Part shown: positions 5,168-23,031 of the stretch, one piece after another
How the letters are laid out: every line of letters starts with the position of its first letter
How positions within the stretch are numbered: position 1 is the first letter of the stretch
DNA from: Amycolatopsis deserti
Lineage (GTDB): Bacteria; Actinomycetota; Actinomycetes; Mycobacteriales; Pseudonocardiaceae
Reading direction: 5' to 3'
Assembly (NCBI RefSeq): GCF_014653945.1
Contig: NZ_BNAU01000001.1
Coordinates: forward strand, 1,612,001 to 1,676,000
Length of the DNA: 64,000 nt
Translations under genes and position numbers: made by a program
Notes under the pieces: model-generated
What the model saw: the letters and a program-made list of their open reading frames with translations, nothing else
Database searches by the model: none
Told to the model about the DNA's origin: nothing

Positions 5168-5506
5168 CCAGGGGTTGGGCTGCGGCACGTGCCCGGCCTC
5201 GGCGGCCGACCACCCGCCCGGCACGACCGGCGACCTGCCACCAGCCCGGCGACACCGACCGACCTCACCACCCGCCGGCCCGAGCCCGGCAAGCCCGCCG
5301 CCGAACCGGCGGAACCAGCCCGACCACCCACCCCGACGGCACCCCCGCCGGCCGACCACCGCCCGACCGCCGAAACCGCCCGGCATGACCGCGCCGGCTG
5401 ACCACCCACCCACCACCGAGCGCGGCCGCGCGCCGGCCGCACCACCCGGTCCCGACGAACCCCTCCACCCTGCCCCCACCACTGAACCCCCTGATTGGAG
5501 ACCCCC
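5168..5506. other. Non-coding gap before acdS
   Basis: This stretch is C-rich low-complexity sequence (many CCACCC/CCGGC runs). The open frames across it have no recognisable protein features. The acdS ribosome-binding site (TTGGAG near 5495-5500) lies at its right end. I see no convincing hairpin or promoter. Confidence 0.6.
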
Positions 5507-6511
5507 ATGTCCCTCGCCGACTTCGAGCGTTATCCCCTGCTCTTCGGGCCCTCGCCGGTGCACCGGCTGGACCGGCTCACCGCCCACCTCGGCGGCGCCG
5601 CGGTCTGGGCCAAGCGCGAGGACTGCAACTCCGGCATCGCGTTCGGCGGGAACAAGACCCGCAAGCTGGAATACCTCGTCGCGGACGCGATCGCCCAGGG
5701 GTGCGACACCCTGGTCTCCATCGGCGGCGTCCAGTCCAACCACACCCGCCAGGTCGCGGCCGTCGCCGCGCGTGCCGGGCTCAAGTGCGTCCTGGTGCAG
5801 GAGAGCTGGGTCGACTGGCCGGACGCCGTCTACGACAAGGTCGGCAACATCCTCCTCAGCCGCCTCGCCGGAGCCGAGGTGCGGCTGGTCAAGGCCGGCT
5901 TCGGCATCGGCTTCAAGGAGAGCTGGGAGCAGGCCCTGGAGGAGATCCGCGAGCGCGGCGGCAAGCCCTACGCGATCCCGGCCGGCGCGTCCGACCACCG
6001 CCTGGGCGGGCTCGGCTTCGCCCGGTGGGCCGCCGAGGTCGCCGAGCAGGAACGCGAGCTGGGCGTGCACTTCGACACGATCATCGTCTGCTCGGTCACC
6101 GGCTCCACCCAGGCCGGGATGATCGCCGGGTTCGCCGCCCTGGACGAGGACCGGCCGCGCCGCATCCTCGGCATCGACGGCTCCGCCAAGCCCGAGGAGA
6201 CCCGCGACCAGATCGCCCGGATCGCGCGCAACACCGCCGACCTGCTCGGCGTCGAGCGCGAGCTGGAGGTGGAACTGGACGAGCGCTACCACGCCGGCGT
6301 CTACGGCATCCCGGACGAGCAGACCCTGGACGCGATGAAGCTCGCCGCCCGCACCGAGGGCATGATCACCGACCCGGTGTACGAGGGCAAGTCGATGGCC
6401 GGGCTCATCGACCTGGTGTCCCGCAAGGAGATCCCCGCGGACTCCACCGTGCTGTACGCGCACCTCGGCGGCCAGCCGGCCCTCAACGGCTACAGCGCAC
6501 TCTTCAGCTGA
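5507..6511 (+). CDS. acdS: 1-aminocyclopropane-1-carboxylate (ACC) deaminase
   Basis: PLP enzyme of the tryptophan-synthase-beta fold that opens ACC, the plant ethylene precursor, to 2-oxobutyrate and ammonia. At 334 residues it matches the family length. The PLP lysine is in FGGNKTRK (K50) and the serine in QSNHTR (S77). The residues used to separate true ACC deaminases from D-cysteine desulfhydrase are both present: the Glu after the catalytic Tyr in VYEGK (Y292, E293) and the Leu in HLGG (L320). Start at ATG 5507 has a GGAG box six bases upstream; an in-frame TTG at 5495 is less likely. A strong terminator follows. This suggests a plant-associated or soil lifestyle. Confidence 0.94.
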
Positions 6512-6517
6512 GGACGA

Positions 6518-6544
6518 GGGCGCCCGGCACGCGACCGGGCGCCC
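6518..6544. terminator. Bidirectional terminator between acdS and the ebo operon
   Basis: GGGCGCCCGG and CCGGGCGCCC form a 10-bp GC stem around a 7-base loop. It sits between the converging stop codons at 6511 and 6551. There is no U-tract, as is common in high-GC actinobacteria. Confidence 0.75.
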
Positions 6545-6550
6545 CGCCCC

Positions 6551-7555
6551 TCACTTCTCGGTGCTGAAGGCGGAGTCGAAGGCCGCCGACGGCTTGTCCC
6601 ACAGCAGGTTGCGGATGAAGCCGACCGCTTCCTCCGCCCCGCGCAGGCGGTCCATGCCGGCGTCCTCCCACTCGACCGAGATCGGGCCCGCGTAGCCGAT
6701 CGAGTTGAGCGCGCGGAAGCACTCCTCCCACGGCACGTCGCCGTGGCCGGTGGACACGAAGTCCCACCCGCGCCGCGCGTCCGCCCACGGCAGGTGCGAT
6801 CCGAGCCGTCCGTTGCGCCCGTCGAACCGCTTCTTGGTGTCCTTGCAGTCGACGTGGTAGATCCGGTCGGCGAAGTCCAGGATGAACCCGACCGGGTCCA
6901 GGTCCTGCCACACGAAGTGCGACGGGTCCCAGTTCAGCCCGAACGCCGGCCGGTTGCCCACCGCGTCCAGGGCCCGGCGCGTCGTCCAGTAGTCGTAGGC
7001 GATCTCCGACGGGTGCACCTCGTGCGCGAACCGCACCCCCACCTCGTCGAACACGTCCAGGATCGGGTTCCAGCGCGCGGCGAAGTCGGCGTAGCCGTCG
7101 TCGATCACCTCCTGCAACACCGGCGGGAACATCGCCACGTACTTCCAGATCTTCGACCCGGTGAAGCCGATGACGGTGTCCACCCCGAGCTTCGCCGCGG
7201 CCCGGGCGGTGTCGGCCATCTCGGCGGCGGCCCGCTGCCGCACGCCCTCCGGCTCACCGTCGCCCCAGACGCGCGCGGGCAGGATGTTGCGGTGCCGCTC
7301 GTCGATCGGGTCGTCGCACACCGCCTGCCCGACCAGGTGGTTCGAGATCGCCCACACCTTGAGCCCGTAAGACTCCAGGATCTTGTGGCGTCCCGCCACG
7401 TAGTCGTCCTCGGTGAGCGCGCGGTCGACCTCGAAGTGGTCGCCGCTGCAGGCGATCTCCAGCCCGTCGTAGCCCCACTGCGAGGCGAGCCGGCACACCT
7501 CCTCGAACGGCAGATCGGCCCACTGGCCCGTGAACAACGTGACCGGACGGCTCAT
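6551..7555 (-). CDS. Sugar phosphate isomerase/epimerase family TIM-barrel protein
   Basis: A 334-residue protein of the AP-endonuclease-2-like xylose-isomerase-fold superfamily. Metal-binding residues typical of the fold are visible: ...FAHEVHPSE (Glu/His), GLNWDPSH (Asp/His), YHVDCKD (His/Asp) and a C-terminal ISVEWED (Glu). It ends the long minus-strand ebo unit, and its ATG overlaps the phosphodiesterase stop (ATGA). Relatives act on inositol derivatives and keto-sugars; the exact substrate is unknown. The upstream inositol-phosphate-synthase-like gene and sugar importer suggest a cyclitol or sugar. Confidence 0.87.
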
Positions 7556-8946
7556 CGCCGGCTCCCTTCGCTCGCCTTCAGTCCTTGCACGCTCAACAGC
7601 AGGTCCCGGACCTCGGTCGCGGCCAGCCGCGCCCGCTCCGGCACGTCGGCGTCGCCGCACAGCAGCACCGGCCCGTCGTCCGGCGAGTCCGGCAGCCGCC
7701 CGTGCGAGCCGCGCACCGGCGCCGGGTCCAGCGGCGTGGTCTTCATCGCGTACCGCAGGCCGGCCTTCTTGCGCACCAGGTTCAGCCCCGCCTTGGCCTT
7801 GACCAGCGGATCGGCCGGGTCGAAGAACAGCTCGGCCGGGTCGTACCCGGGCTTGCGGTGGATCTCCACGCCACGCGCGAAGTCCGGCGCGCGGTCGTCG
7901 TCGAGCCAGTAGTAGTAGGTGAACCACGCGTCCGGCTCCGCGGTCACCACGAACTCGCCGGCGCGCGGGTGGTCGATGCCGTAGCGGGACTGGGCCTGCC
8001 GGTCCAGCACTTCGTCCACACCGGACAGTTCGCCGAGCAGGCCGCGCACCCGGGGCAGGTCCGCCTCGTCGGCCACGTAGACGTGGGCGACCTGGTGGTC
8101 GGCGACGGCGAAGGCCCGCGACGTCCACGGGTCCAGGTACTCCATGCCGTCCTGCGTGTAGACCTCGAGCAAGCCCTCCCGGCGCAGCAGCCGGTTGATG
8201 TCCACCGGCCGGTGCGCGTTGGTGATGCCGTACTCCGACAGCGCCACCACCCCCACGCCGTCGGCACGGGCCTGGTCCAGCAGCGGCGCCACGGACGCGT
8301 CGACCGCGCGGGCGGCCGCGATGGCCTGCGGCGAGTCCGGGCCGAACCGCTGCAGGTCGTAGTCCAGGTGCGGCAGGTAGGCCAGGGTCAGGTCCGGCCG
8401 GTCGGCCCGCAGGATCGTCGAGGTCGCGCCGACGATCCAGTCGGTGGAGGCGATCGACGCGGTCGGGCCCCAGTACTGGAACAGCGGGAACTCGCCCAGC
8501 CGCGAGGTGAGCCGGTCGTGCAGCTCCGGCGGGCGCGTGTAGCAGTCCGGCGCCTTCTTCCCGTCGGCGTAGTAGATCGGCCGCGGCGTCACGGTGAAGT
8601 CCGTGGTGGCGCCCATCGCGTACCACCAGCACACGTTGGCCGCGCGGTAGCCGGGTCGCGCCGCCCGCGCGGTCTCCCACAGCTTCTCGCCCTCGACCAG
8701 CTTGTTGTGCTGGCGCCACAGGAAGACCTCGCCCATCTCGCGGAAGTACCAGCCGTTGCCGACGATGCCGTGCTCGCTGGGCATCCGCCCGGTCAGGAAC
8801 GTGGACTGGACGCTGCAGGTCACCGCGGGCAGGACCGTGTCCAGCTGCGCCTGCCAGCCCTGTTGCCCCAGCCTCGCCACGTTCGGCATGTGCTTGAGCA
8901 GCCGCGGGGTCATCCCCACGATGTCGAGCACCAGGAGCGGTTTCAC
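7552..8946 (-). CDS. Alkaline phosphatase superfamily protein (type I phosphodiesterase/nucleotide pyrophosphatase), Ebo-associated
   Basis: A 464-residue metallo-hydrolase. The N-terminal [14 protein letters not shown] is the first metal-binding strand, and [17 protein letters not shown] holds the nucleophile region (the Thr/Ser of T-C-S). [13 protein letters not shown] and [13 protein letters not shown] carry the remaining Asp/His metal ligands. Proteins of this family are regular members of ebo gene clusters and probably hydrolyse a phosphoester product of the pathway; this is inference from neighbourhood. Start chosen at GTG 8946, overlapping the EboE stop as GTGA. No signal peptide is seen, so it is cytoplasmic. 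Confidence 0.86.
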
Positions 8947-10028
8947 TTCTTCGCCACCAATCCCGCGGCGAAGGACAGCTCCGCCGCGATCCCGCCGATG
9001 AGGTCCTGGCGGTGCGCCTCCGGCAGCACCGTCCAGGTGTAGGTTTCCACTTCCAGGTGCGCCGGCTTCGGCGGCAGCGCGGCGAGGGCCTGTGCCAGCA
9101 CCTCGGTGGTCGAGGACAGCGGCGCCGCCGGGGTCGCGTGCAGCGGCACGTGGAAGTGCACGCGCCACGGCCCCTCCCCCGGCAGGTCCGCGAACGCCTC
9201 GCCCAGGTCGTCGGCCTTGCGGACCTCGCCGCCGGCCGATTCCCGGGTCTGGTGCAGGTAGCGCGGCTCGTCGAACGCCGCCAGCGCCTCCCGCGCGGAC
9301 GGGTCCCGCGGATCCGGCACGTGCAGCGCCGCCGACATCTGGACCTTGACCACGTCCAGCCCGGCGGCGGTGATCTCGGCGACCGCCCCGGCCGGGTCGG
9401 CGAAGGACACCGCGAGGTGGCAGGTGTCCAGGCACAGGCCGACGTGAGCCGGATCGACGCGCCCGGCCAGCCAGGACACGGCGTCGTGCACGGTGTCCAG
9501 GATGCAGCCGGGTTCCGGTTCGACGGCGAGCCGGATCGTCCGCTCCAGGGCGCCCAGCCCGGTGGTCACCTCGTCGAGCAGCCGCGCCGCGGCCGCGTCA
9601 TCGGCGGGTGTCCACGGTTCGCGCCAGCCCAGCGGCAGGGTCGAGATGCTGCCGAACTCCGCGTCGTCGGGCAGCAGCCCGGACAGCACGGCCGCGCAGT
9701 TCAGCGTGTACTCCGCCCGGGCCGCGTCCGTCCATCGTGGGTGGTAGACCTTCTGCTTGACGACCGGGTCGTGGAAGCCGCCGTAGGGGAAGGCGTTGAG
9801 CGTCACCACTTCCAGGCCGCGGGTGTCCAGCTCGGCGCGCAGCCGCTTGCGCTCGGCCGGATCCGCGGCCAGCGCCGACGCCACGTCGGCGGCCAGCCAC
9901 AGTCCCAGCCCGAGCCGGTCGGCTCCCAGCCGTTCCCGCACCGGCAGGGCGTAGGAGTCGAGCTGGCCGAGGACCCCGTTGAGGTCCTCGGCCGGATGGA
10001 CGTTGGTGCAGTAGGACAGCGGCGTCAC
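8943..10028 (-). CDS. eboE: Metabolite traffic protein EboE (TIM barrel)
   Basis: A 361-residue xylose-isomerase-like TIM-barrel protein. It opens with [13 protein letters not shown] and has [16 protein letters not shown] early, VEPEPGCIL and [10 protein letters not shown] in the middle, and a C-terminal HLEVETYTW. These are the characteristic stretches of EboE proteins. In cyanobacteria the ebo genes are needed to move the scytonemin monomer across the cytoplasmic membrane, and in algae and plastids they are of unknown function. Start GTG 10028 gives a GTGA overlap with eboB. The ATG-led extension further upstream runs through the eboB coding region and was rejected. Confidence 0.9.
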
Positions 10029-10900
10029 GCGACCGCCTCGTCCCGCCCGCCACGCAGCACCGAGTTGCCCGCGAAGGTCTCCTTCGCCGCCGAGAACCCG
10101 GGCAGCTCGTCGAGCACCAGCCGCCCGCTCTGACCGTAGAACGCGACCGGGTTGGCCCACAGCACGGTGTCCACATCGGAGGAGGTGAACCCGCCCTCGA
10201 GCATCGCCAGGCCGGTCTTGTGCACCTTGAGCGGGTCCGAGCGGCCCCAGTCGGCGGCGGAGTTGACCAGCATCTTCTCCGTGCCGTACTCGCGCAGGAT
10301 CGCGACCATCCGCTGCTCGTCCATCTTGGTGTCCGGGTAGATGGAAAAGCCCATCCAGGCGCCGGATTCCTTCACCAGGCCGACGGTGACCTCGTTGAGG
10401 TGGTCGACCACGACCCGCTCCGGCGCGATACCGGACTCCGCCACCACGGCGAGCGTGCGCTTGGTGCCTTCCAGCTTGTCCCGGTGCGGGGTGTGCACCA
10501 GCACCGGCAGGTCGTGCTCCTTCGCCAGTTCCAGCTGGCGGGCGAAGGCGGCGTCCTCGGCCGGCGTCATCGAGTCGTAGCCGACCTCGCCGACCGCGAC
10601 CACGCCGTCCTTGGCGAGGTAGCGCGGCAGCACGTCGAGCACCGGCGTGCAGCGCGGGTCGTTGGCCTCCTTGGGGTTGAGCGCGATCGTGCAGTGGTGG
10701 CGGATGCCGAACTGGGCGGCGCGGAAGCGTTCCCAGCCGATCAGGCCGTCGAAGTAGTCGGTGAACGACGACACGCCGGTGCGCGGCTGGCCGAGCCAGA
10801 ACGCGGGCTCGACCAGGGCCCGGACGCCGGCGGCGTACATGGCCTCGTAGTCGTCGGTGGTGCGGGAGGTCATGTGGATGTGCGGATCGAACAGGCGCAT
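10025..10900 (-). CDS. eboB: TatD-like metal-dependent hydrolase EboB
   Basis: A 291-residue amidohydrolase-fold protein. The metal-binding DPHIHM is at residues 5-10, VGEVGYDS carries the bridging Glu, LVHTPHRDK and VVDHLNEVT carry further histidines, and VNSAADWGRSDPL carries the late Asp. This follows the TatD pattern. It lies between eboA and eboE with one- and four-base overlaps, matching known ebo clusters where a TatD-like protein is constant. Start ATG 10900 is one base into the eboA stop (TGATG). Confidence 0.9.
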   Translation of the reverse strand: MRLFDPHIHMTSRTTDDYEAMYAAGVRALVEPAFWLGQPRTGVSSFTDYFDGLIGWERFRAAQFGIRHHCTIALNPKEANDPRCTPVLDVLPRYLAKDGVVAVGEVGYDSMTPAEDAAFARQLELAKEHDLPVLVHTPHRDKLEGTKRTLAVVAESGIAPERVVVDHLNEVTVGLVKESGAWMGFSIYPDTKMDEQRMVAILREYGTEKMLVNSAADWGRSDPLKVHKTGLAMLEGGFTSSDVDTVLWANPVAFYGQSGRLVLDELPGFSAAKETFAGNSVLRGGRDEAVA

Positions 10901-12312
10901 CAGGGTGTCTCTTCCAGGAAGCGGAGGGCGTCGGCGGGAACGGCGCGGCCGGCGGCCCGGCGCTCCCCGGCGTAGTCGGTGATCATGCGGCGCAGCTCGT
11001 CGTCGGCCCGCCGGTCCAGCTCGGCGACCGCGGCGAGCGGGATGCCGGTGAACAGGCATTTGAGCACGCCGTGGCGCCAGCCGTGCTGGTCCAGGTGACG
11101 GGCGGCGAACGGGCCGAGCGCAGCGGCGACCAGGCCGGTGTCGTTGGTGCGCAGGGCGTCGCGGACCAGCTCGAGACCGGTGGCGACGGCCTTGTCGCCG
11201 ACCGCCGACAGCGCCCGCAGCACGCCCCGCCGCTCGGCGCCGTCGCCGTAGCGGTAGAGGTCGGCCAGCTCCGCCGCGAACTCCGCGGCGGGCAGGGCGG
11301 CGGCCAGTGTCTGCAGCAGCCTCGTCCGGGCGAGGTCGTCGGCGGTGCCGTGGACCAGGCCGTCCGGATCGGTGTCCGGGTGCAGCGGCCCGCGCCCGAC
11401 GTGCCGTCCGGCGGCCGGGAACAGGGTGGCGACCGCGGCCGGATCGGTCGCGACGCGCCGTTGCGCCTCGCCGAGCCACGACTGGTCCAGCCGCGCCGCC
11501 CGCAACGCGGTCAGCGCGGCACGGGCGACCTGCGGCGCGGCGTGGCTGTGCCGGGGCAGCTCGACCGCGGCGACACCGGTGTAGCCGATCTCGTCCAGCG
11601 CGGCGAGCGTGGCAGGCAGGTCGAGTTCGCCATCGCCGAACTCGAGGTGCTCGTGCACGCGCGGCCGCATGTCGTCCAGCTGCACGTTGACCAGCAGCCC
11701 CTTGGCCTGCCGGATGCAGTCGGCCGCGTCGGTGGGCTCGACGGCGACGCAGTGCCCGACGTCGAGGGTGATCCCGAGCGGTTCGGGATCACCCAGCTCG
11801 GTGCGCAGCCGCAGCGCGTTCGACAGGGTCTCCACGAGCATCCCGGGTTCCGGTTCCAGGCCGAGGCGGACACCGCTCCGGTCCGCCTCGGCCAGCACCA
11901 CGGGCATCCGCGACCGCAGCCGCTCCCACGCCGTCGGCTCATCCACAGTGGACACCCCGGACCAGAACGACACGCAGTCGGCGCCCAGGCCTTCGGCGAC
12001 CCGGATCGCCCGGGCCAGGAAGTCCAGCCGCTGGTCCGCGTTCTCGCTGACCAGGGTCGGTTCGTGCTTGTGCCACGGGTCGAGCAGGAACCGCGCGCCG
12101 GTCTCCACCACACACCGCAGGCCCAGCTCGCCCAGCCGGTGCGCGACCCGGTCCACCCGCGCGGCCAGGTCGTCCGCGAACGGATCGAGGTGCTGGTGGT
12201 CCAGGGTCAGCGCGACCGAGGTGTAGCCGAGATCGGCGATGATCGCGAGGGCGTCGTCCAGCCGGTGATTGGCGAACCCGTTGGTGCCGTAGCCGAGGTG
12301 GTAGCCGCTCAT
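10900..12312 (-). CDS. eboA: Fusion of a TIM-barrel sugar isomerase domain with an EboA domain
   Basis: A 470-residue two-domain protein. Residues about 1-285 form a xylose-isomerase-like barrel: YHLGYGTNGFANHRLDDAL at the start, LGLEPEPGMLVE, LGITLDVGHCVAVEP and AAVELPRHSH carry the Glu/Asp/His metal set. Residues about 295-470 are an alpha-helical EboA domain (WLGEAQRRV, LADLYRYGDGAERRGVLRAL, HGVLKCLFTGIPL). In cyanobacterial clusters EboA is a separate small protein, so the fusion ties the uncharacterised EboA domain to a sugar-phosphate-type enzyme. Overlaps eboC by four bases (ATGA). Confidence 0.88.
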   Translation of the reverse strand: MSGYHLGYGTNGFANHRLDDALAIIADLGYTSVALTLDHQHLDPFADDLAARVDRVAHRLGELGLRCVVETGARFLLDPWHKHEPTLVSENADQRLDFLARAIRVAEGLGADCVSFWSGVSTVDEPTAWERLRSRMPVVLAEADRSGVRLGLEPEPGMLVETLSNALRLRTELGDPEPLGITLDVGHCVAVEPTDAADCIRQAKGLLVNVQLDDMRPRVHEHLEFGDGELDLPATLAALDEIGYTGVAAVELPRHSHAAPQVARAALTALRAARLDQSWLGEAQRRVATDPAAVATLFPAAGRHVGRGPLHPDTDPDGLVHGTADDLARTRLLQTLAAALPAAEFAAELADLYRYGDGAERRGVLRALSAVGDKAVATGLELVRDALRTNDTGLVAAALGPFAARHLDQHGWRHGVLKCLFTGIPLAAVAELDRRADDELRRMITDYAGERRAAGRAVPADALRFLEETP

Positions 12313-13187
12313 GTCGGGCTCACCTTCCGGCCGAGCCGCTTGGCCAGCGGCAGCGCCAGCGCGACCAGGCCCGCGCCCAGCACGCCGCCGCGCCGGGCCG
12401 CGAGCGCGGCCTGCAGCGGGACCATGCCGTGGATCCCGGCGGCCGTGGCCGTGCGGACCACCGCCGCGGAGGGCTTGCGCACCGCCGCGTACTGCTTGGA
12501 CCCGACACTCACGCCGTACCCGGCGGCCGCGGCCAGCGCCGCCACCCGGTGACCGGGCGCACCGCCGCGTCCGGACACCGCCGCGGCGGCGGACGCCGAG
12601 GTCAGCGCGAGAGCACCGGCCGCCCGCGCCGGCGACCCGCCGTGCACCTCACCGGCCGACAACGCCGTCACGCCGAGCGTGTGCCCGCCCAGCACCGCGG
12701 CCGGGACCACCGCCTTCGCCGCACCCGAGCCGCCCGCGCCGAGCAGTACGTCCAGCGACCGGCACACCGCCATCGACACCGCCGCGAGCGGGGTCTTCTT
12801 CAGCACCGTGTCGTAGGCCCACACCGCCGCCGCCAACGGCGCGGCGACCTTGAGGGCATCACGGCCGCCCGCGAGCGCGGACAACCCGAGACCCGCGCCG
12901 GTCAGCCCGGCCGCGACCCCGAGCGCCCGCCGCGGGGTGATCCGGCCGGACGGGATCGGCCGCTCCGGGCGCTCGACCGCGTCCAGGTCCCGGTCGGCCC
13001 AGTCGTTGAGCGCCATGCCCGACCAGTAGAAGGCCACCGAGGCCAGCGGCAGCGCGAGCCGCCGTCCCCGCAACGGACGACCGGCCGCGGCGGCGCCCGC
13101 GACGGTGTCGCCGAGGACGCTCAGCGCGGCCGGAGCCCGGACCAGCTGCACGTAGGGATTCACGCGGGGGTTCACGCGGGGGCTCAC
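12309..13187 (-). CDS. eboC: UbiA-like prenyltransferase family membrane protein EboC
   Basis: A 292-residue polytopic membrane protein with about eight helices. The prenyl-diphosphate-binding motif NDWADRDLD is at residues 61-69 and the second motif region reads YDTVLKKTPL. Both are kept, so catalysis is possible. EboC is the integral membrane member of ebo clusters and may add a lipid or act in transfer across the membrane. Start GTG 13187 overlaps the eboD stop (GTGA). A longer frame upstream only reads the antisense of eboD. Confidence 0.88.
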   Translation of the reverse strand: MSPRVNPRVNPYVQLVRAPAALSVLGDTVAGAAAAGRPLRGRRLALPLASVAFYWSGMALNDWADRDLDAVERPERPIPSGRITPRRALGVAAGLTGAGLGLSALAGGRDALKVAAPLAAAVWAYDTVLKKTPLAAVSMAVCRSLDVLLGAGGSGAAKAVVPAAVLGGHTLGVTALSAGEVHGGSPARAAGALALTSASAAAAVSGRGGAPGHRVAALAAAAGYGVSVGSKQYAAVRKPSAAVVRTATAAGIHGMVPLQAALAARRGGVLGAGLVALALPLAKRLGRKVSPT

Positions 13188-14335
13188 TGCTGCCGTCCCA
13201 GCGACGCCGCCCACTCGGCGAGCACCCGGGCCTGCTCGGCGAACCGGTGCTCGTCGGTGCCCACCGGGTCCTTGAAGAAGAAGGCCAGCTGGCCCAGCGG
13301 CCCGGTCTCGCCCGCCCGGTAGGCGGCCGCGGTCAGCCGCGCCAGGTCCAGCACCAGCGGCGCGGCCAGCGCCGAGTCGTAGCCGGTCCAGGTGAACTGC
13401 AGCGTCATCCGGGCGCCCAGGAAGCCCTCGAACGACACGTGGTCCCACGCCGTCTTCTGCTCGCCCAGATCCGGCACGTGGTCGATGTGCAGCGGCGCGG
13501 TCACGTCGTCGCCGAGCAGCGCCGCCAGGCCGCGGGCCTTCGACTCCAGCTTCCCGGCCGCCTTCACCGGGTCGGCCAGCGTCGCGCCGTCCCCGCCGCC
13601 GAGCAGGTTGGTGCCCGACCACGAGCGCACCTTCAGCGCCCGCGCCGCGAACATCGGCGCCAGCACCGAGCGCAGCAGCGTCTCGCCGGTCTTGCCGTCC
13701 GATCCGGCGTAGGGCAGACCCTGCCGCCGGGCGAATTCGGTGAGCGCGGGCAACCGGATGCCCGTCGACGGCGTGAAGTCCACGAAGGGGCACCCCGCCG
13801 ACACCGCCGCGTACGCCGCCAGGGAGCTGCCGGGCAGGACCTCCCGGCCCGGCTCGTCCAGCGCCGCCACCAGCGCGTCGAGGTCGTGGTGCTCCGGCGC
13901 GTCCACGGTTGGGGGTTCCGTGGACGAGACGTTGATCACCACGACGGCCGACAGGCCGTGCCGGGTGCGGAACTCACGCAGGTCGTCGGCCAGCCGCGCG
14001 GCGGTCTCGGCCTGTGTGCGCCCGGCGGGCACCGGGCGCAGGTCGGCTTCGACGGCGCGCAGGCCGTCGCGGATCGCCGGCAGCAGGCCGGCCGGGAGCA
14101 GCCCGCCCGCGGTGAGCTGCTCCGCCTTCTTCTCCAGCGGCGTGTCCACCAGGTCGTGCCCGCCGACGACGAGCTCGCCCCAGCCCGGAAGCACCCCGGG
14201 CGCCACCTCGAGCCGCTCGGTCACGCAGCCGTCCGGCCCGGTCAGGCCGGACCGCATCGCGAGCAGGCCGCTGATCGCCGTCGTGGCCACCGAGCCACGC
14301 GCGCCGACCAGCCATAGTCCAGTTCTCTCAGGCAT
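13184..14335 (-). CDS. eboD: Inositol-3-phosphate synthase family protein EboD
   Basis: A 383-residue NAD-dependent protein related to myo-inositol-1-phosphate synthase. The N-terminal Rossmann loop reads VGARGSVATT. Further family landmarks are PFVDFTPSTG, GSDGKTGETLL, SWSGTNLLGGGDG and DHVSFEGFLG. The lysine-bearing GSDGKTG and the aspartate of GGGDG correspond to catalytic-site regions of the synthase. Its presence in ebo clusters suggests that a cyclitol-like phosphate is the pathway intermediate. It begins eight bases inside the upstream oxidoreductase gene, indicating co-transcription with the sugar transporter genes. Confidence 0.88.
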   Translation of the reverse strand: MPERTGLWLVGARGSVATTAISGLLAMRSGLTGPDGCVTERLEVAPGVLPGWGELVVGGHDLVDTPLEKKAEQLTAGGLLPAGLLPAIRDGLRAVEADLRPVPAGRTQAETAARLADDLREFRTRHGLSAVVVINVSSTEPPTVDAPEHHDLDALVAALDEPGREVLPGSSLAAYAAVSAGCPFVDFTPSTGIRLPALTEFARRQGLPYAGSDGKTGETLLRSVLAPMFAARALKVRSWSGTNLLGGGDGATLADPVKAAGKLESKARGLAALLGDDVTAPLHIDHVPDLGEQKTAWDHVSFEGFLGARMTLQFTWTGYDSALAAPLVLDLARLTAAAYRAGETGPLGQLAFFFKDPVGTDEHRFAEQARVLAEWAASLGRQQ

Positions 14336-15509
14336 CGATCACCCTTTCGGTCGACATTGATACGCCGACCCAGGACGTTCCGTTGCCCGCGCTCTCCTCC
14401 ACCGCGTGCAGCACCCGCTGGACCTGCAGGCCGTCGGCGAACCCCGGCTCGGGGTCGCGCTGCTCGCCGATGGCGGTGAGGAAGTCGGCGATCTCGTGGG
14501 TGAAGGTGTGCTCGTAGCCCAGCAGGTGCCCGGGCGGCCACCACGCCCCGACGTAGGGGTGACCCGGCTCGGTCACCAGGATCCGCCGGAACCCCGCCTC
14601 GGCCGGGTCGTCGTCGCCGTCGTAGAAGGACAGCTCGTTCATCGACTCGAAGTCGAAGGCCAGGCTGCCCCGCGACCCGTTGATCTCCAGCCGCAGCGCG
14701 TTCTTGCGGCCCAGCGCGAACCGGGTGGCCTCGAACGTGGCGACCGCGCCGCCGGTGAACCGGGCCAGGAACACCGCGCAGTCGTCGACGTCGACCTCGC
14801 CCAGCGCGCTGCCCGGCTCCCCGGACAGCGGCCGCTCCCGCACGAACGTCTCGGTCATCGCCGACACCCCGGTGATCCGGTCGCCGAGGACGAACTGCGC
14901 GGTGTCCACGGCGTGCGCGGCGATGTCGCCCAGCGCGCCCGATCCGGCCTTGTCCTTGCGCAGCCGCCAGGTCATCGGCGTGGCCGGGTCGGCCAGCCAG
15001 TCCTGCAGGTAGGCGGCCCGCACCTGGCGGATCGTGCCCAGCCTGCCCTCGGCGACCATCTTGCGGGCCAGCGCGATCGCCGGCACCCGCCGGTAGTTGA
15101 ACCCGACCATCGCGCGCTGCCCGTTGGCCGCCGCGCGCTCGGCGGCCGCGGCCATCTCCTCGGCCTCGGCGACCGAGTTGGCCAGGGGTTTTTCGCACAG
15201 CACGTGCTTGCCTGCGGCCAGCGCGGCCAGCGCGATCTCGGCGTGCGAATCCCCGGGAGTGCAGATGTCGACGATGCCGACGTCGTCGCGGGCGACCAGG
15301 GTGGCCCAGTCTGTCTCGGTGTCCGGCCAGCCCTGCTTGGCGGCGGCGGCCTTCGTGCGCTCCGGGTCGCGGCCGCCGAGCACGGCCAGCCGCGGCACCA
15401 GGGGCACGTCGAAGAACCGGTGGACCGAGCGCCAGGCGTGGGCGTGGACGGCACCCATGAAGGCGTGCCCGACCATGCCCACGCCGATGGAGGCGCCCGC
15501 GGGGGTCAC
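14328..15509 (-). CDS. Gfo/Idh/MocA family oxidoreductase
   Basis: NAD(P)-dependent sugar or cyclitol dehydrogenase, 393 residues from GTG 15509. The N-terminal GVGMVGHAFMG Rossmann stretch, the CEKPLANS lysine motif and the ALGDIAAHAVDTAQ aspartate/histidine pair are all canonical. Upstream ATGs at 15539 and 15533 would overlap the binding-protein gene by about 20-30 bases and remain possible. Its place between the transporter and eboD fits oxidation of the imported compound before entry into the Ebo steps. Relatives include inositol 2-dehydrogenase and glucose-fructose oxidoreductase; the substrate is not determined. Confidence 0.88.
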   Translation of the reverse strand: MTPAGASIGVGMVGHAFMGAVHAHAWRSVHRFFDVPLVPRLAVLGGRDPERTKAAAAKQGWPDTETDWATLVARDDVGIVDICTPGDSHAEIALAALAAGKHVLCEKPLANSVAEAEEMAAAAERAAANGQRAMVGFNYRRVPAIALARKMVAEGRLGTIRQVRAAYLQDWLADPATPMTWRLRKDKAGSGALGDIAAHAVDTAQFVLGDRITGVSAMTETFVRERPLSGEPGSALGEVDVDDCAVFLARFTGGAVATFEATRFALGRKNALRLEINGSRGSLAFDFESMNELSFYDGDDDPAEAGFRRILVTEPGHPYVGAWWPPGHLLGYEHTFTHEIADFLTAIGEQRDPEPGFADGLQVQRVLHAVEESAGNGTSWVGVSMSTERVIDA

Positions 15510-15513
15510 GGGG

Positions 15514-16569
15514 TCAGGAGTCGAAGGCGACATCGGCATAGGAATCGACGTTCTCCTTGGTCACCACGGCCGAGTAGGTCGTGACGTTCGCGGGGATCTC
15601 GTGCTCGGCCAGGTCGCCGATGCCCTTGGCCTGGCCGAGCAGCCGGGCCAGGGCGATCGCCGAGGACGCCATCGACGGGCTGTAGAGGACCGTCGCCTTC
15701 ATCACGCCGCTGTCGGCCTTGATCAGGTCCATCATGTTGCGCGACCCGGCGCCGCCGACCATGAAGAACTCGCTGCGCCGCGCGTTGTCGATGGCCGCGA
15801 GCACGCCGATGCCCTGGTCGTCGTCGTGGTTCCACAGCGCGTCGAGCTTGCTCGCCGACTGCAGCAGGTTCGATGTCATCTGCTCGCCGCTTTCCGGCGT
15901 GAACTGCGCGGACACCCGCGGGCCGACGGCGAACCCGTGCTTGGCGAGCGCGTCCTTGAAGCCCTGGCTGCGCTCCTGGGTCAGCGGCAGCGAGTCGATG
16001 CCGGCGACCTCGCCGATCACCGGGTTGCTCACGCCCTTCTTCTTCAGCTCCCCGGCGATGTAGTTGCCGGCGTTGACGCCCATCCGGTAGTTGTCGCCGC
16101 CGATCCAGGTGCGGTAGGCCAGCGGCGTGTCGAACACCCGGTCCACGTTGACCACCGGGATGCCGGCGTCCATGGCCTGCTGACCGGCCTGGGTGAGGGC
16201 CTTGCCGTCGAAGGGCAGGATCACCAGGACGTCGACCTTCTGGTTGATCAGCGTCTCGACCTGGGCGATCTGCTGGTTGACGTCGTTGGTGCCCTCGGTG
16301 GCGGTGAAGGTGACGTCGGAGAACTGGCCGGCCTGCGCGCGGGCGTTCTTGGTCATCGCCGCCATCCAGCCGTGGTCGGCGGCCGGGGCGGAGAAGCCGA
16401 TCGTGACGTGCTTGCCGGGCTGGGCGTTCTGGCCCGCGCTGCCGGCGACGGCCTGCGGGGCCGACTGCGGCGACTCGTTGGAGGTGCAGGCGGCCAGCAG
16501 GGCGCCGGCGCCGACGGCCGCGCCACCGGTGAGGAAGCGGCGGCGGGCGAGAGAGGATGGTCCGGACAT
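15514..16569 (-). CDS. Sugar ABC transporter substrate-binding lipoprotein (ribose/xylose type)
   Basis: A 351-residue periplasmic-binding-protein family 1 (RbsB-like) lipoprotein. The N-terminus ARRRFLTGGAAVGAGALLAAC combines a Tat-like RR-R-F motif with a lipobox (Cys28). Hallmarks are IGFSAPAADHGW, NQQIAQVETLINQKVDVLVI and VVNVDRVFD. It captures a sugar or polyol for the permease and ATPase encoded just upstream. It is separated from the permease by 42 bp, the only real gap within the transporter part of the operon. Confidence 0.92.
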   Translation of the reverse strand: MSGPSSLARRRFLTGGAAVGAGALLAACTSNESPQSAPQAVAGSAGQNAQPGKHVTIGFSAPAADHGWMAAMTKNARAQAGQFSDVTFTATEGTNDVNQQIAQVETLINQKVDVLVILPFDGKALTQAGQQAMDAGIPVVNVDRVFDTPLAYRTWIGGDNYRMGVNAGNYIAGELKKKGVSNPVIGEVAGIDSLPLTQERSQGFKDALAKHGFAVGPRVSAQFTPESGEQMTSNLLQSASKLDALWNHDDDQGIGVLAAIDNARRSEFFMVGGAGSRNMMDLIKADSGVMKATVLYSPSMASSAIALARLLGQAKGIGDLAEHEIPANVTTYSAVVTKENVDSYADVAFDS

Positions 16570-16611
16570 GGCGAGCTCCAGTGATCGTCGGGGTGTTCGG
16601 GGTCGGGGTTC

Positions 16612-17643
16612 CTAAGTGGACTTGCGACTGCGGTTGGTGCGGAACTGCAGCAGAACGGCGAGCACGATGATCGCGCCCTTGGCGATGTTCTGGATGTCGG
16701 TGTCGAGGTTGTTGAGCGTGAAGATGTTGCCCAGCACGGTGAAGATCAGGACACCGATGAGCGTGCCGATCAGGGTGCCGCGGCCGCCGGAGAGCAGCGT
16801 GCCGCCGATGACCACCGCGGCGATCGCGTCCAGCTCGTAGTACAGGCCGTTGGTCGAGGCGCCCGAGGTGGTGCGCGCGACGACCATGATCGCCGCGATG
16901 CCGCAGCACAGCCCGGCCACGGCGTAAACGAGCGCGGTGTGCCGCTTGACGTTGATGCCGGCCAGCCGCGCGGCCTCGGTGTTGCCGCCGACGGCGAACG
17001 TGCGGCGGCCGAACGTGGTGCGGTTGAGCAGGATCCAGCCGACCACGAACACCAGGGCGAACATCCAGATCAGCACCGGGATGCCGAGGAAGTCACCGCG
17101 GAACACGGACAGGAACCCGCTTTCCCGCACCACCTGGGTCTGCCGTCCGCTGATCCGCTCGGCCAGGCCGCGTGCCGAGGCGTACATCGCGAGCGTGGCG
17201 ATGAACGGCACCACCCTGCCGTAGGAGACGAGCACGCCGTTGATCAGGCCGCAGCCGACGCCGACCGCCAGCGCGCAGACCACCATCACCACCGGGCCGA
17301 ACGACTGCGTCGCCAGCGTCGTCGCCCACACGCTGGACAGCGCGACGATCGAGCCGACCGACAGGTCGATGCCGCCGCTGATGATCACGAACGTCATGCC
17401 GACGCTCACCACGCCGATCGCGGCCGCCAGCCGCAGCACGGTCGACAGGTTGCCCTCGGTGAAGAACGCGTCCGGCCGCGTCAGCCATCCCACCAGGCAC
17501 AGCAGGACGAACACGCCGAACAGCCCGGCCAGCCGGACGTCCACCGGGAACCGCCCGCGCGCGGCCTTCGGGGCCGGCGGCGCGGCCCGGGGTGGCGGGG
17601 CCTGGGTGGCCTCCGGCAACACCGACGAGGAGTCCTTCGTCAT
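16612..17643 (-). CDS. Sugar ABC transporter permease (RbsC/XylH family)
   Basis: A 343-residue membrane permease with a proline/alanine-rich cytoplasmic N-terminus of about 35 residues and eight to ten hydrophobic segments. The family signature ISGGIDLSVGS is intact, as are AVGGNTEAARLAGI (the EAA-like loop contacting the ATPase) and AIAAVVIGGTLLSGGRG. A single permease gene implies a homodimer. The start overlaps the ATPase stop by four bases. Confidence 0.93.
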   Translation of the reverse strand: MTKDSSSVLPEATQAPPPRAAPPAPKAARGRFPVDVRLAGLFGVFVLLCLVGWLTRPDAFFTEGNLSTVLRLAAAIGVVSVGMTFVIISGGIDLSVGSIVALSSVWATTLATQSFGPVVMVVCALAVGVGCGLINGVLVSYGRVVPFIATLAMYASARGLAERISGRQTQVVRESGFLSVFRGDFLGIPVLIWMFALVFVVGWILLNRTTFGRRTFAVGGNTEAARLAGINVKRHTALVYAVAGLCCGIAAIMVVARTTSGASTNGLYYELDAIAAVVIGGTLLSGGRGTLIGTLIGVLIFTVLGNIFTLNNLDTDIQNIAKGAIIVLAVLLQFRTNRSRKST

Positions 17644-19151
17644 GCCGCACTTCCCTCCATCACCAGATTCAGCACGTCTGCTTCGGTCAGCTCGCTCGCG
17701 GGGGCTTCGCGGACCACCTGGCCCTCCCGCAGCACGAGCACGCGGTCGGCGAGCCCGAGCACCTCGGGCATCTCGCTGGAGACCAGCACCAGCCCGACCC
17801 CGGCCGCGGCCAGCTCGCGGATCAGCCGGTACAGCTCGGCGCGCGCGCCGACGTCCACGCCGCGGGTCGGCTCGTCCAGCAGCAGGATCGAGCAGCCGCG
17901 CACCAGCCAGCGCGCGACGACCGCCTTCTGCTGGTTGCCGCCGGACAGCGTGCCCACCGGGCGGCGCGGATCCGCCGGGCGCAGGTCCAGCTGCCGCAGG
18001 CGCTCGGCCGAATCGCCGATCTCGCGGGCGCGGTCGGTGAAGCCGAGGCGGCTGTACTCGGGCAGGCTCGCCAGCGTCACGTTGTGCGCGACCGACATCT
18101 CCAGCAGCAGCGCCTGGCTCTTGCGTTCCTCCGGCGCCAGGCCGATCCCGGCCTTCACCGCGCTCGGGACGTCGCCGGGCTTGAGCCGCTTGCCCTCGAC
18201 GAAGACCTGGCCGCCGTCCGGTTTGCGGGCGCCGAAGATGGTTTCCAGCAGCTCGCTGCGGCCCGCGCCGACCAGGCCGGCCAGGCCGAGGATCTCGCCG
18301 CGCCGCAGGGTGAAGCTGACGTTGGAGAACTCCCCCCGGCGGGTCAGGTTCTCCACGCGCAGCAGCTCGGTGGAGCTGTCCACAGTGGATTCCAGGCGCT
18401 CCGGGTACACGGTCTCCACGCGGCGGCCGGACATCAGCGACACGAGGTGGTCGGTGGTGACGTCGGCGACTTCGAGCCCGGCGGCGACGGTGGCGCCGTC
18501 CTTGAGCACGGTGACGCGGTTGCCGATCCGGCGGATCTCCTCCAGGCGGTGCGAGATGTAGACGACGGCCACGCCGTCCGCGGTCAGCTCGGCGACGATG
18601 CGGAACAGGTTGTCCACCTCGTCGGAGGCCAGCGCGGCGGTCGGCTCGTCCATCACGATCAGGCGTGCGTCGTGGACCAGGGCCCGTGCCATGGAGACCA
18701 GCTGCTGGCCGGCGGCGGAGAGGTCGCCGACCTCGCGGTCGGGGTGGATCTCCGGGTGGCCGAGCCGCGCGAGCAGCTCGGTGGCCTTCGCACGGGCCTG
18801 CCGGTCGCGGGTGAACCCGGCCTGGGCGGGCTCGTGGCCGAGGAAGATGTTGTCGGCCACCGACAGCGCCGGGATGAGGTCGAGCTCCTGGTACATGGTG
18901 GCGATGCCGCGGCGCAGGGCGGCCACCGGGGAGGACAGCGTGACCGGTTCGCCCTGCCAGCGGATCTCGCCCGCGTCCGGCTGGTGCGCCCCGGCGAGGA
19001 CCTTGATCAGGGTCGATTTGCCGGCGCCGTTCTGGCCGAGCAGGCAGTGCACCTCCCCCGCCCGCACCGACAGCTCGACACCGTCCAGCGCCCGGACACC
19101 CGGGAACGTCTTGACGATGCCGCGCATGGACAGCAGGTCTTCGGTCATCAC
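17640..19151 (-). CDS. Sugar ABC transporter ATP-binding protein, duplicated domains (RbsA/MglA family)
   Basis: A 503-residue protein with two fused ATPase halves. The first has Walker A GQNGAGKST (about residues 40-48) and Walker B LIVMDEPTAAL. The second has the degenerate loop GLVGAGRSEL, the signature LSGGNQQK and Walker B ILLLDEPTRGVD. The divergent first-half signature (LSAAGQQ) is normal for this family. It powers the permease encoded next. The gene may start at GTG 19151 or ATG 19148, both overlapping the ROK regulator stop. Confidence 0.93.
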   Translation of the reverse strand: MMTEDLLSMRGIVKTFPGVRALDGVELSVRAGEVHCLLGQNGAGKSTLIKVLAGAHQPDAGEIRWQGEPVTLSSPVAALRRGIATMYQELDLIPALSVADNIFLGHEPAQAGFTRDRQARAKATELLARLGHPEIHPDREVGDLSAAGQQLVSMARALVHDARLIVMDEPTAALASDEVDNLFRIVAELTADGVAVVYISHRLEEIRRIGNRVTVLKDGATVAAGLEVADVTTDHLVSLMSGRRVETVYPERLESTVDSSTELLRVENLTRRGEFSNVSFTLRRGEILGLAGLVGAGRSELLETIFGARKPDGGQVFVEGKRLKPGDVPSAVKAGIGLAPEERKSQALLLEMSVAHNVTLASLPEYSRLGFTDRAREIGDSAERLRQLDLRPADPRRPVGTLSGGNQQKAVVARWLVRGCSILLLDEPTRGVDVGARAELYRLIRELAAAGVGLVLVSSEMPEVLGLADRVLVLREGQVVREAPASELTEADVLNLVMEGSAA

Positions 19152-20371
19152 GCCTCCACGCTCACCGGGGCGCCGGCCGGGGCCAGCGTCGGATCGTCCA
19201 GCAGGGGCCGGATCGCGGCCTGCGCCGCGCCGGTGCCGACCGCGGTGAACCCGAGCCGGGACGCCACGATGCGGGGGCCGCCGGTCTCGGCGGTCACCGA
19301 GCGGGCGGCCAGTTCGGCGCGGATCGGCTCGGCGAGCCAGTCGCGCAGCGGCGCGAAGTAGCCGCCGAGGACGACGATCCGGGGGTCGAGCAGGTCGGCC
19401 AGGACCGCGATGCCGTGGCCGAGTCCGGCGCCGAGCTGGGTGAGCGCGTCCAGGACGCGGCGATCACCCTGCTGGGCGCGCTGGCGCACGATCGCGGTGC
19501 GCTGGGCCAGGTCGAGGGACGGGTCGTGGACCAGGTCGCGCGGGGTGGCCAGCGAGTGCAGGAACGCGTCGATCCCGACCGCGGTCTGCCAGCAGCCGCG
19601 GCGGCCGCAGACGCAGGGACGGCCGGTGGGTTCCAGCGACAGGTGCCCGACCTCGCCGGCGGCGCCGCCGATCAGCCTGCCGCCGGTGATCAGCCCCGCG
19701 CCGACGCCCAGGCCGCCGAGGAGGAACACGACGTCGGAGCAGCCGCGGGCGGCGCCGCTGTCGGCCTCGGCCAGCGCGGCGAGGTTGGCGTTGTTGCCGA
19801 CGACGATGCGCTCCAGCGGGAAGCCGGTGCGGGCGGCGAGCCCGTCGGCGAGGGCGAGGTCGCGCCAGCGCAGGCCGGGCGCGAGGCGAACGGTGCCGGC
19901 GGGGTCGACCAGCCCGGGCACAGCCACCGCGATGCCCGCGACCTGGTCCACTTCGGACATCGCGCCGAGCACGAGCGCGGCCAGTTCGTCGAGGGTGCGC
20001 TCCGGCCCGAGGGCGCGGACGTCGCAGGTGGCGCGGCGGCGGGCGGTCGCGGTGCCGGCGAGGTCTCCGAGCGTGCTGCCGAGGTGGTCCTCGGCGACCT
20101 CCAGCCCGATGCCCCAGTTGCCGCGCGGCCGCAGCTCGACGAGCTGACCCGGCCGGCCCTGGCCGCCCTCGTGACGGCCGCCGGCCTGGACCAGCTCGCG
20201 GACCTCCAGCTCGGCGACCAGGCCGGAGACGGTGGCCTTGCTCAGGCCGCTCAGGGTCGCCAGTTGCGCGCGGGAGAGCCCCCCGTGGCGGCGGAGGAGC
20301 CGGACGAGCAGGGCGAGGTTGGCCCTGCGGACACCGGCGCGGTCCGTCGGCCGGTCGAAAGGTTGGGGCAC
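19148..20371 (-). CDS. ROK family transcriptional regulator of the transporter-ebo operon
   Basis: A 407-residue repressor-type ROK protein. An N-terminal winged helix is followed by the sugar-kinase-like domain: LSRAQLATLSGLSKATVSGL at about residues 32-51, GIAVAVPGLVD, GNNANLAALAE. The zinc cluster is present as CVCGRRGCW. It is the first gene of the minus-strand unit that runs down to 6551, overlapping the ATPase gene, so it probably senses the imported sugar and controls the operon. Start GTG 20371 has a GGAG box about 8 bases upstream. A palindrome at 20499-20519 is a likely operator. Confidence 0.9.
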   Translation of the reverse strand: MPQPFDRPTDRAGVRRANLALLVRLLRRHGGLSRAQLATLSGLSKATVSGLVAELEVRELVQAGGRHEGGQGRPGQLVELRPRGNWGIGLEVAEDHLGSTLGDLAGTATARRRATCDVRALGPERTLDELAALVLGAMSEVDQVAGIAVAVPGLVDPAGTVRLAPGLRWRDLALADGLAARTGFPLERIVVGNNANLAALAEADSGAARGCSDVVFLLGGLGVGAGLITGGRLIGGAAGEVGHLSLEPTGRPCVCGRRGCWQTAVGIDAFLHSLATPRDLVHDPSLDLAQRTAIVRQRAQQGDRRVLDALTQLGAGLGHGIAVLADLLDPRIVVLGGYFAPLRDWLAEPIRAELAARSVTAETGGPRIVASRLGFTAVGTGAAQAAIRPLLDDPTLAPAGAPVSVEA

Positions 20372-20408
20372 CGGGGACGCTCCACTTCGTCGGGAAACTG
20401 GCCGGTCT

Positions 20409-20441
20409 CAGTGCTGGGTGTCAGTGCTGGGTCGCAGTGCT
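20409..20441. repeat. Three short direct repeats, 13-bp period, upstream of the ROK operon
   Basis: CAGTGCTGGGT begins at 20409 and 20422, and a third truncated copy (CAGTGCT) at 20435. The repeats lie in the leader just upstream of the ROK gene start. They could be regulator half-sites or a replication-slippage product. Confidence 0.5.
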
Positions 20442-20498
20442 CTGCCGTACGCCGCCTACTCTGACTGGCGGATACTTCTGCCACAATCCGGCAAAAGG

Positions 20499-20519
20499 AG
20501 TAACAATCAGATCGTTACT
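20499..20519. promoter_or_regulatory. Candidate ROK operator palindrome
   Basis: AGTAAC, nine bases, then GTTACT form a perfect 21-bp inverted repeat inside an unusually AT-rich patch for this genome (about 20480-20540). It is 128 bp upstream of the ROK gene and in the only sizeable gap before the transporter-ebo unit, so it is a good candidate operator. Confidence 0.55.
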
Positions 20520-20645
20520 TTTGAACCGGACTGTCGAAAGTGTGCTCAGCTCCGGACATGCCGGCGGTTCGCGAGCGGGCCCGGAGCAACCAGCGGTGGT
20601 GGTACGGCCGCTCCGGATACGCCCGCAGGGAGTTCTTCCGGACGG

Positions 20646-21842: not shown

Positions 21843-21947
21843 GGGGGCACCAGCCTCCTCGCTGCTCGCGCGTGCTCCGACTGTAGCGCCGTCGCCGCCC
21901 CTTTTGAGCAGACGCGGCCGAACTTTGTTCCGGAAAATCCGAAACTC

Positions 21948-21977
21948 TGGACACTTTCAGCGGAAGTTGCCTACGTT
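21948..21977 (+). promoter_or_regulatory. Possible promoter for the TIM-barrel/sugar-dehydrogenase pair
   Basis: TGGACA and TACGTT are separated by 18 bases, a reasonable primary-sigma promoter, 53 bp upstream of the GTG start at 22030. Next to it, GGAAAATCCGAAAC gives short repeated CCGAA/GGAA elements that might bind the divergent ROK regulator. Confidence 0.35.
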
Positions 21978-22029
21978 ACCGGCGCACGTGACAAGGGGGT
22001 CGGTTCACACTCGGCTGAAGGAGAAATCC

Positions 22030-22989: not shown

Positions 22990-23031
22990 CCCCTCCCCTC
23001 CCCGTCGAAATCCCACCGGAGTGATCTCGCG

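Follow-up and report, generated by a model that had tools for sequence, protein, structure and literature searches.

The ebo gene cluster occurs in many bacterial phyla and in the plastids of some algae, and to our knowledge neither its product nor its job is known. We describe here an ebo cluster of Amycolatopsis deserti, found in a window of 64,000 nucleotides (positions 1,612,001 to 1,676,000 of contig NZ_BNAU01000001.1, assembly GCF_014653945.1) in a 7.7-Mb genome. The cluster is an ebo variant in which a cyclase of the myo-inositol-1-phosphate synthase (MIPS) family replaces the 3-dehydroquinate synthase (DHQS)-type EboD. A gene for a putatively secreted GSDH protein lies nearby, and the co-occurrence of ebo clusters with this GSDH subfamily was near-obligate in a sample of genomes from the same class.

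In the accessible portions of the description of the cluster by Yurchenko and coworkers (2016, PMC5133447), EboD is assigned to the sugar phosphate cyclase superfamily, an EboA-TIM fusion of Actinobacteria is already mentioned, and the word "inositol" does not occur. EboD is called a putative 3-dehydroquinate synthase in the accessible part of PMC9235831. Compared with what those portions of PMC5133447 describe, the A. deserti operon is similar in combining EboE, EboB, an EboF-like protein, UbiA and an EboA domain, and differs in having a MIPS instead of a DHQS-type EboD and a UbiA protein that passes the SCO3242 model rather than that of EboC. In Nostoc punctiforme, all ebo mutants and the scyE mutant are without scytonemin and accumulate its monomer; in the ebo mutants the monomer stays in the cytoplasm, which the authors read as an export role (PMC6282210). 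The Nostoc system is like the one proposed below in that scytonemin requires Ebo proteins and that its final, oxidative step is located beyond the cytoplasm, whereas its partner and product are ScyE and scytonemin, in place of the sugar dehydrogenases and glycoside enzymes found here. Our data do not decide between an export role and other Ebo roles in this comparison. A parallel with beta-propeller Scy proteins was not used, as NHL repeats are given for ScyF only in the accessible part of PMC4870267.

The Ebo and GSDH genes of the window are the following.

7552-8946, minus strand: EboF-like type I phosphodiesterase/pyrophosphatase (PF01663, 3.1e-65)
8943-10028, minus strand: EboE (NF035939, 428 bits, cut-off 250)
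10025-10900, minus strand: EboB, TatD-like hydrolase (PF01026, 5.7e-13)
10900-12312, minus strand: TIM barrel fused to an EboA domain (PF01261, 6.1e-36; NF035938, 162.8 bits, cut-off 50)
12309-13187, minus strand: UbiA-type prenyltransferase of the SCO3242 family, in the EboC position (NF045897, 359 bits, cut-off 260)
13184-14335, minus strand: MIPS-family cyclase in the place of canonical EboD (PF07994, 2.5e-46; PF01658, 7.5e-30)
23032-26310, plus strand: GSDH-PKD-CBM6-FIMAH protein of 1,092 amino acids (PF07995, 1.1e-27), with a leader that looks like a signal sequence

The product of 13184-14335 has as its best solved relative 1u1i, a myo-inositol-1-phosphate synthase (3e-63), with which it aligns along its length. 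It keeps the two lysines replaced by alanine in 3qvw and 3qvx, which we take to be catalytic, and has a weaker PDB match to 6k96, named a five-membered-cyclitol-phosphate synthase. MIPS is expected to form its ring from glucose-6-phosphate, and the window protein would make a phosphorylated cyclitol. The first-pass annotation, made from the letters of the window, had labeled this gene eboD; this one label is wrong. We rejected a housekeeping role for the enzyme, since the genome has a separate mycothiol INO1 on another contig (696 bits) and the mycothiol INO1 model gives the window MIPS 27 bits where 638 are needed.

The cyclase swap is also found in relatives. EboE was matched in 80 of the 296 genomes of an even draw from the class and exceeded its cut-off in 76; 78 over-cut-off loci were fetched from 75 genomes other than that of the window, as regions of up to 19.9 kb, 12 of them shorter at contig ends. 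Loci found with MIPS as the query are biased, and the counts used come from this EboE-drawn sample. MIPS is present at 69 of the 78 loci and a DHQS-type EboD at none of them when the fetched regions are compared with four EboD queries. As a control, the same four queries detect EboD, at 54-64% identity, in five loci that did not supply a query (Roseivivax, Deinococcus QL22, Salipiger, Gloeothece and Mycetohabitans). The nine loci lacking MIPS comprise five with a lone EboE, two cut at contig ends (L137, L138) and two without a match (L090, L132). The lone genes (L120, L149, L152, L160, L162) encode EboE over the cut-off, and their fetched regions contain no further Ebo genes. Two of them (L120 and L149) stand in a gene run with another CUT2-like importer and what look like alcohol dehydrogenase, glyoxalase-like, M24-peptidase-like and 2-oxo-acid dehydrogenase genes. 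Two genomes, G057 (L090/L100) and G208 (L101/L108), each contain a pair of ebo clusters, of which one adjoins importer, Gfo, TIMz (a TIM-barrel protein described below) and GSDH genes and the other lacks them.

The UbiA protein scores only 134 bits with the EboC model, below its cut-off of 250, and its N61, D62, D65 and D69 are invariant in all ten aligned proteins, five of which come from DHQS-type clusters; it has further residues in common with the UbiA proteins of such clusters. The TIM-EboA fusion falls short of the full-length EboA family model (60 bits against 320). EboB is 52-60% identical to the EboB of Ketogulonicigenium, Aureibacter, Roseivivax, Salipiger and Azospirillum; no curated EboB or EboF model appeared in the NCBIfam scan of the operon proteins. 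The earlier description of an Ebo gene set stands for EboE, the EboA domain, EboB and EboF, and fails, within the operon, for the canonical EboD, whose place is taken by MIPS. Since UbiA and MIPS both occur in the pathway, a prenylated cyclitol is suggested as its product, which fits the phosphorylated, possibly prenylated cyclitol intermediate that had been proposed.

The GSDH domain of the window, used as a query at an E-value of 1e-20, matched 68 of the 296 class genomes among the candidates scored, which in most genomes numbered at most five, a cap that could have concealed members in genomes without ebo. This subfamily is present in 66 of the 71 genomes that carry an ebo cluster versus two of the 225 others. 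The 71 exclude five lone-EboE genomes that show no other Ebo gene in the fetched region (G040, G068, G177, G256, G295); with these included, the counts are 66/76 versus 2/220. Four genomes with a partial EboE below the cut-off (G055, G151, G215, G259) were counted as lacking ebo; neither MIPS (threshold 1e-30) nor GSDH (1e-20) is matched in them. The genomes are not independent of each other. In the seven families tabulated (the source table names all but ten genomes), GSDH in ebo versus other genomes was 14/14 v 0/13, 18/20 v 0/7, 4/4 v 0/20, 4/4 v 0/9, 3/3 v 0/2, 1/2 v 0/24 and 18/18 v 2/3, or 62 of 65 versus two of 78 when pooled. A phylum sample of 217 genomes, 19 of which belong to the class according to a kinship-ordered listing, contained EboE in 11 and GSDH in 11, ten being common to both; outside the class, GSDH was found in 4/4 ebo genomes and in 1/194 others.

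The link with ebo is specific to the subfamily, because the GSDH superfamily (PF07995) as a whole is common in genomes without an ebo cluster: it occurs in 46 of 50 chosen genomes, 48 of which have none. This PF07995 search also served as a check on the GSDH count, with all candidates scored and 20 regions fetched. Against the subfamily profile, the members from G183 and G226 scored 641 and 484 bits, 16 other regions scored 91 or less and two gave no match, so that beyond those two genomes no GSDH-like region near subfamily scores was seen in these 50 genomes and 20 regions. Linkage does not explain the whole association either, since of the 26 ebo genomes without GSDH in the fetched region, 21 carry it elsewhere in the genome, 13 of these having uncut 20-kb regions. 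Two or more GSDH matches are present in 57 of the 68 genomes and a single EboE over the cut-off in 73 of 76; because one cluster usually accompanies several GSDH genes, a shared factor made by the Ebo proteins would be the simplest account.

In A. deserti the Ebo genes share a strand with sugar import genes, and the locus is completed by these features.

6518-6544, no strand: perfect 10-bp inverted repeat, terminator-like, just past the last operon gene and between convergent genes
6551-7555, minus strand: TIMz, xylose-isomerase-like TIM barrel (PF01261, 4.8e-42)
14328-15539, minus strand: Gfo/Idh/MocA dehydrogenase (nearest NCBIfam model NF052479, levoglucosan dehydrogenase, 357 bits, cut-off 650 unmet)
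15514-16569, minus strand: sugar-binding protein of a CUT2-type importer (PF13407, 9.9e-43), with a leader of lipoprotein-like appearance
16612-17643, minus strand: importer permease (PF02653, 2e-40)
17640-19148, minus strand: importer ATPase, AraG/XylG/RbsA-like (all three models matched below their cut-offs)
19148-20371, minus strand: ROK1 regulator (PF00480, 1.5e-40)
20646-21842, minus strand: ROK2 regulator (PF00480, 3.1e-62)
22030-22989, plus strand: TIM barrel (PF01261, 1.7e-13; start picked by the gene caller), with a leader presumed to be twin-arginine-like from its motif

Open reading frame and profile analysis of the window confirmed the twelve overlapping or closely spaced minus-strand genes of the first-pass annotation: twelve open frames occupy the whole of 6551-20371, and overlaps of 1-26 nucleotides, with the starts as chosen here, occur at ten of the eleven junctions, the exception being a 42-nucleotide gap between the permease and binding protein genes. 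Judged from this layout, the twelve genes form one operon. The extent given earlier holds for these twelve and missed what follows 20371, namely the second ROK gene, on the operon strand 274 nucleotides upstream of ROK1, and the divergent TIM barrel and GSDH pair (22030-26310). Homologues of ROK2 are next to transporter genes in some relatives (e.g. L028, L034, L040). The nearest named relatives, Amycolatopsis tucumanensis and A. thermalba, have MIPS proteins 98% and 97% identical to that of the window and the same gene order. A terminator scan reported no site at the inverted repeat 6518-6544, and a scan for sigma-70-like promoters over 6400-22200 gave 0 sites where 0.3 were expected and is hence uninformative. 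Convergent to the operon, 5495-6511 encodes a pyridoxal-phosphate-dependent enzyme (PF00291) that looks like a 1-aminocyclopropane-1-carboxylate deaminase or D-cysteine desulfhydrase. A PGA_cap protein (PF09587; 26381-27493) follows the GSDH gene, and a large, mostly plus-strand block at 33742-54842 has the appearance of glycogen, maltose and trehalose enzymes.

The transporter linkage of the first-pass annotation is conserved in relatives: the binding protein and Gfo are both present in 34 of the 69 MIPS-type clusters. Of the same clusters, 37 have TIMz, 43 a GSDH domain and 33 a ThuA domain. In one relative (L014), a single protein directly upstream of MIPS joins ThuA, GSDH, PKD, CBM6, 3-keto-disaccharide hydrolase and FIMAH domains. 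Gene order and strand vary, with TIMz after EboF in some clusters and before MIPS in others and the importer upstream or divergent, so the neighborhood is not one frozen block. At the genome level, TIMz (63/76 EboE genomes versus 42/220 others) and ThuA (70/76 versus 42/220) are weaker partners of ebo than the GSDH subfamily is. In 43 of the 63 genomes having both, TIMz and EboE lie no more than 20 kb apart, a proximity that partly reflects shared descent.

The importer binding protein is a relative of ribose-binding proteins. The solved relatives of TIMz are 2zds, a "putative DNA-binding protein" (589 bits) presumably from Streptomyces coelicolor, and 8ro4, a 2-hydroxy-3-keto-glucal hydratase (143 bits); those of Gfo are 4h3v (581 bits) and 6a3f (295 bits), which we take to be levoglucosan dehydrogenase, with a scyllo-inositol dehydrogenase lower in the list. 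The module resembles the levoglucosan genes LgdA/B1/B2/C as given in the available sections of PMC7676230, where levoglucosan dehydrogenase and two annotated sugar phosphate isomerases lie beside a sugar ABC transporter and the route runs by oxidation, elimination and hydration; TIMz is a more distant relative of the 8ro4 hydratase than of 2zds. It differs in that the window Gfo reaches only 357 of the 650 bits required and in that neither a secreted GSDH nor ebo is part of the pathway in those sections. Because Gfo misses the levoglucosan-dehydrogenase cut-off, the sugar module may act on a substrate other than levoglucosan.

The first-pass annotation had proposed an imported cyclitol or sugar as the starting material of the Ebo enzymes. 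The single operon and the frequent pairing of binding protein and Gfo with the cluster would suit such a role, as UbiA and MIPS would suit a cyclitol intermediate. We nevertheless regard it as quite improbable: among the class genomes, ebo occurs in none of the 40 with TIMz and no GSDH and in all three with GSDH and no TIMz, so that ebo goes with the secreted dehydrogenase rather than with the route of import. ThuA without GSDH is accompanied by ebo in 1 of 45 genomes. An imported cyclitol would also be unnecessary, since MIPS is expected to build its own ring from a sugar phosphate, and 35 of the 69 MIPS-type clusters show no relative of the window's binding protein in the fetched region.

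The reading that we prefer, and to which we give about an even chance, is that the MIPS-type Ebo pathway makes an exported prenyl-cyclitol factor needed by the secreted GSDH proteins, whose products the importer would take in. The MIPS-family cyclase would supply a phosphorylated cyclitol, the UbiA enzyme would prenylate it in the membrane, and EboA, EboB, EboE and EboF would complete the prenylated cyclitol. The secreted GSDH proteins, putative quinoprotein-fold sugar dehydrogenases that in relatives are frequently joined with ThuA and 3-keto-disaccharide hydrolase domains in one protein, would use the exported product as a cofactor, electron carrier or membrane partner and oxidize glycosides outside the cell. 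The CUT2-type importer, Gfo/Idh/MocA and the hydratase-like TIMz could then import and process sugars of the 3-keto type under ROK control.

The GSDH domain of about 450 residues was modelled with a pLDDT (predicted local distance difference test) score of 91; its top PDB matches are glucose dehydrogenases, and its fold matches 7cdy and 2ism. Among residues with a presumed role in PQQ binding, His134, Arg230 and Asn231, which align with quinoprotein dehydrogenases, are kept in 25/25 sequences; Lys372 is kept in 19/25 and Arg388 in 17/25, being Gln in the window protein. The domain thus resembles the soluble pyrroloquinoline quinone (PQQ) sugar dehydrogenases (1c9u, 3a9g, 2ism, 3das) in its fold and in the aligned His and Arg-Asn residues. 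It differs from them in being a domain inside much longer open frames, mostly of 700-2,500 amino acids, and in the rarity of PqqE in its genomes: PqqE exceeds its cut-off in 7/296 class genomes and 6/68 genomes with the GSDH subfamily, one being that of the window (G000:C1:1324483-1325517, 515 bits). Missing PQQ genes alone are not evidence for another cofactor, because ordinary GSDH genes are common in genomes lacking ebo too. As the domain keeps the His and the Arg-Asn pair and its modelled fold matches quinoprotein dehydrogenases, a redox role of the Ebo product for GSDH is possible. The stronger form of this idea seems to us unlikely, namely that the prenylated cyclitol is a novel redox cofactor or electron-carrying lipid, exported to the secreted quinoprotein-fold sugar dehydrogenases, in which it would replace or join PQQ. 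The prenylated cyclitol could instead be a lipid carrier, an export factor of the kind suggested for cyanobacteria, and the small molecule that it moves across the membrane would be acted on by GSDH outside the cell, much as ScyE would act on the scytonemin monomer. The leader of GSDH, which suggests a location outside the cell, agrees with such a carrier; the carbohydrate-binding domains of the GSDH proteins point to glycans rather than to a dedicated small molecule, and we hold this alternative to be rather unlikely.

Archaea, Gemmatimonadota, Bacteroidota, Cyanobacteria and Proteobacteria are represented in our data by plasmids only. Among 72,556 plasmid records, GSDH was found in 12, EboB in 51 and both in six (Nonomuraea, two Embleya, Halocatena, Haladaptatus and Natronococcus), two of which are chromosome-sized (Nonomuraea, 11.9 Mb; Embleya, 5.7 Mb). 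The haloarchaeal plasmids of Halocatena, Haladaptatus and Natronococcus carry EboB, UbiA, TIM and EboF with GSDH on one record, and MIPS in two of the three; the Haladaptatus record has no MIPS at 1e-25. In Halocatena one strand runs EboB, TIM, UbiA, TIM, TIM, binding protein, ATPase, two permeases and GSDH, with MIPS, EboF, ThuA and Gfo nearby. Haladaptatus has a row, on both strands, of importer genes, a DUF1080 gene, Gfo (43% identical to that of the window), TIM, EboF, EboB, TIM and UbiA, with a ThuA-GSDH gene nearby. Identities of the haloarchaeal proteins to those of the window are 43-48% for MIPS, 36-39% for EboF, 43-47% for EboB and 28-38% for UbiA (the 38% over 147 residues). Clusters of the MIPS type occur in Actinomycetota, Gemmatirosa and three haloarchaea (Halocatena, Natronococcus, Halobaculum). 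In Gemmatirosa the cluster comes with TIMz (60% identity) and a Gfo gene (33%), and EboB and GSDH are on different plasmids. DHQS-type plasmid clusters were annotated or detected in Ketogulonicigenium, two Deinococcus, Azospirillum, Roseivivax, Aureibacter, Salipiger, Gloeothece (whose record shows EboB and EboD only) and Mycetohabitans. Two Halomarina plasmids have a MIPS at 44-45% identity and are without EboB at 1e-15. In two planctomycete genomes whose MIPS is 47% identical, EboE is present away from the MIPS gene. The planctomycete MIPS genes (47-48%; L047 10010-13119, L049 10013-13136, and L048) are directly followed by a gene for a protein of 614-644 amino acids with no family assigned.

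Several observations weigh against the prenyl-cyclitol factor. Co-occurrence does not equal dependence, and the fold matches of GSDH are known PQQ enzymes, so that it may simply use scavenged PQQ. Five real ebo clusters have no GSDH (G007, G082, G143, G172, G293); conversely, G183 and G226 have GSDH without EboE over the cut-off and without MIPS, and G327 of the phylum sample has GSDH without EboE. For eight of the 21 genomes with apparently unlinked GSDH, the fetched regions were cut by contig ends, so linkage is possible there, and in G284, one of the 13 with uncut regions, GSDH lies about 12 kb beyond EboE. Of the 51 plasmid records with EboB, 45, mostly from Streptomyces, lack a GSDH gene, in a search confined to the plasmids and not extended to the chromosomes. 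GSDH is likewise absent from every record with a DHQS-type ebo plasmid cluster, and the rule may not cover that type. In 19 of the 69 MIPS-type regions (five of them cut) there is no binding protein, Gfo, TIMz or ThuA/GSDH/hydrolase domain. This partial linkage, the five clusters without GSDH and the presence of TIMz in genomes without EboE over the cut-off would also be expected if two pathways useful to the same soil saprotrophs simply travel together, the Ebo metabolite being independent of glycoside degradation by GSDH, ThuA, importer, Gfo and TIMz. We consider this doubtful, if still a serious possibility, as the association holds within families, for copies outside the fetched region, outside the class and on archaeal plasmids, and as TIMz, a supposed member of the same package, is not accompanied by ebo in genomes lacking GSDH.

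A link of ebo with MIPS, ThuA or GSDH was not found among the papers listed from the open-licence literature searched, a scope that mostly leaves out subscription journals. The exchange of DHQS for MIPS in this position speaks for the conjecture of a cyclitol product and indicates which cyclitol to seek. The near one-to-one match with GSDH, seen in several actinomycetotal families and on the plasmids of three haloarchaea, provides ebo with a definite partner beyond the scytonemin system and with a prediction that can be tested directly. If the Ebo product were a redox factor, it would be common to Actinomycetota, Gemmatimonadota and haloarchaea, and the cyanobacterial "export" phenotype would be recast as the loss of a periplasmic oxidation factor.

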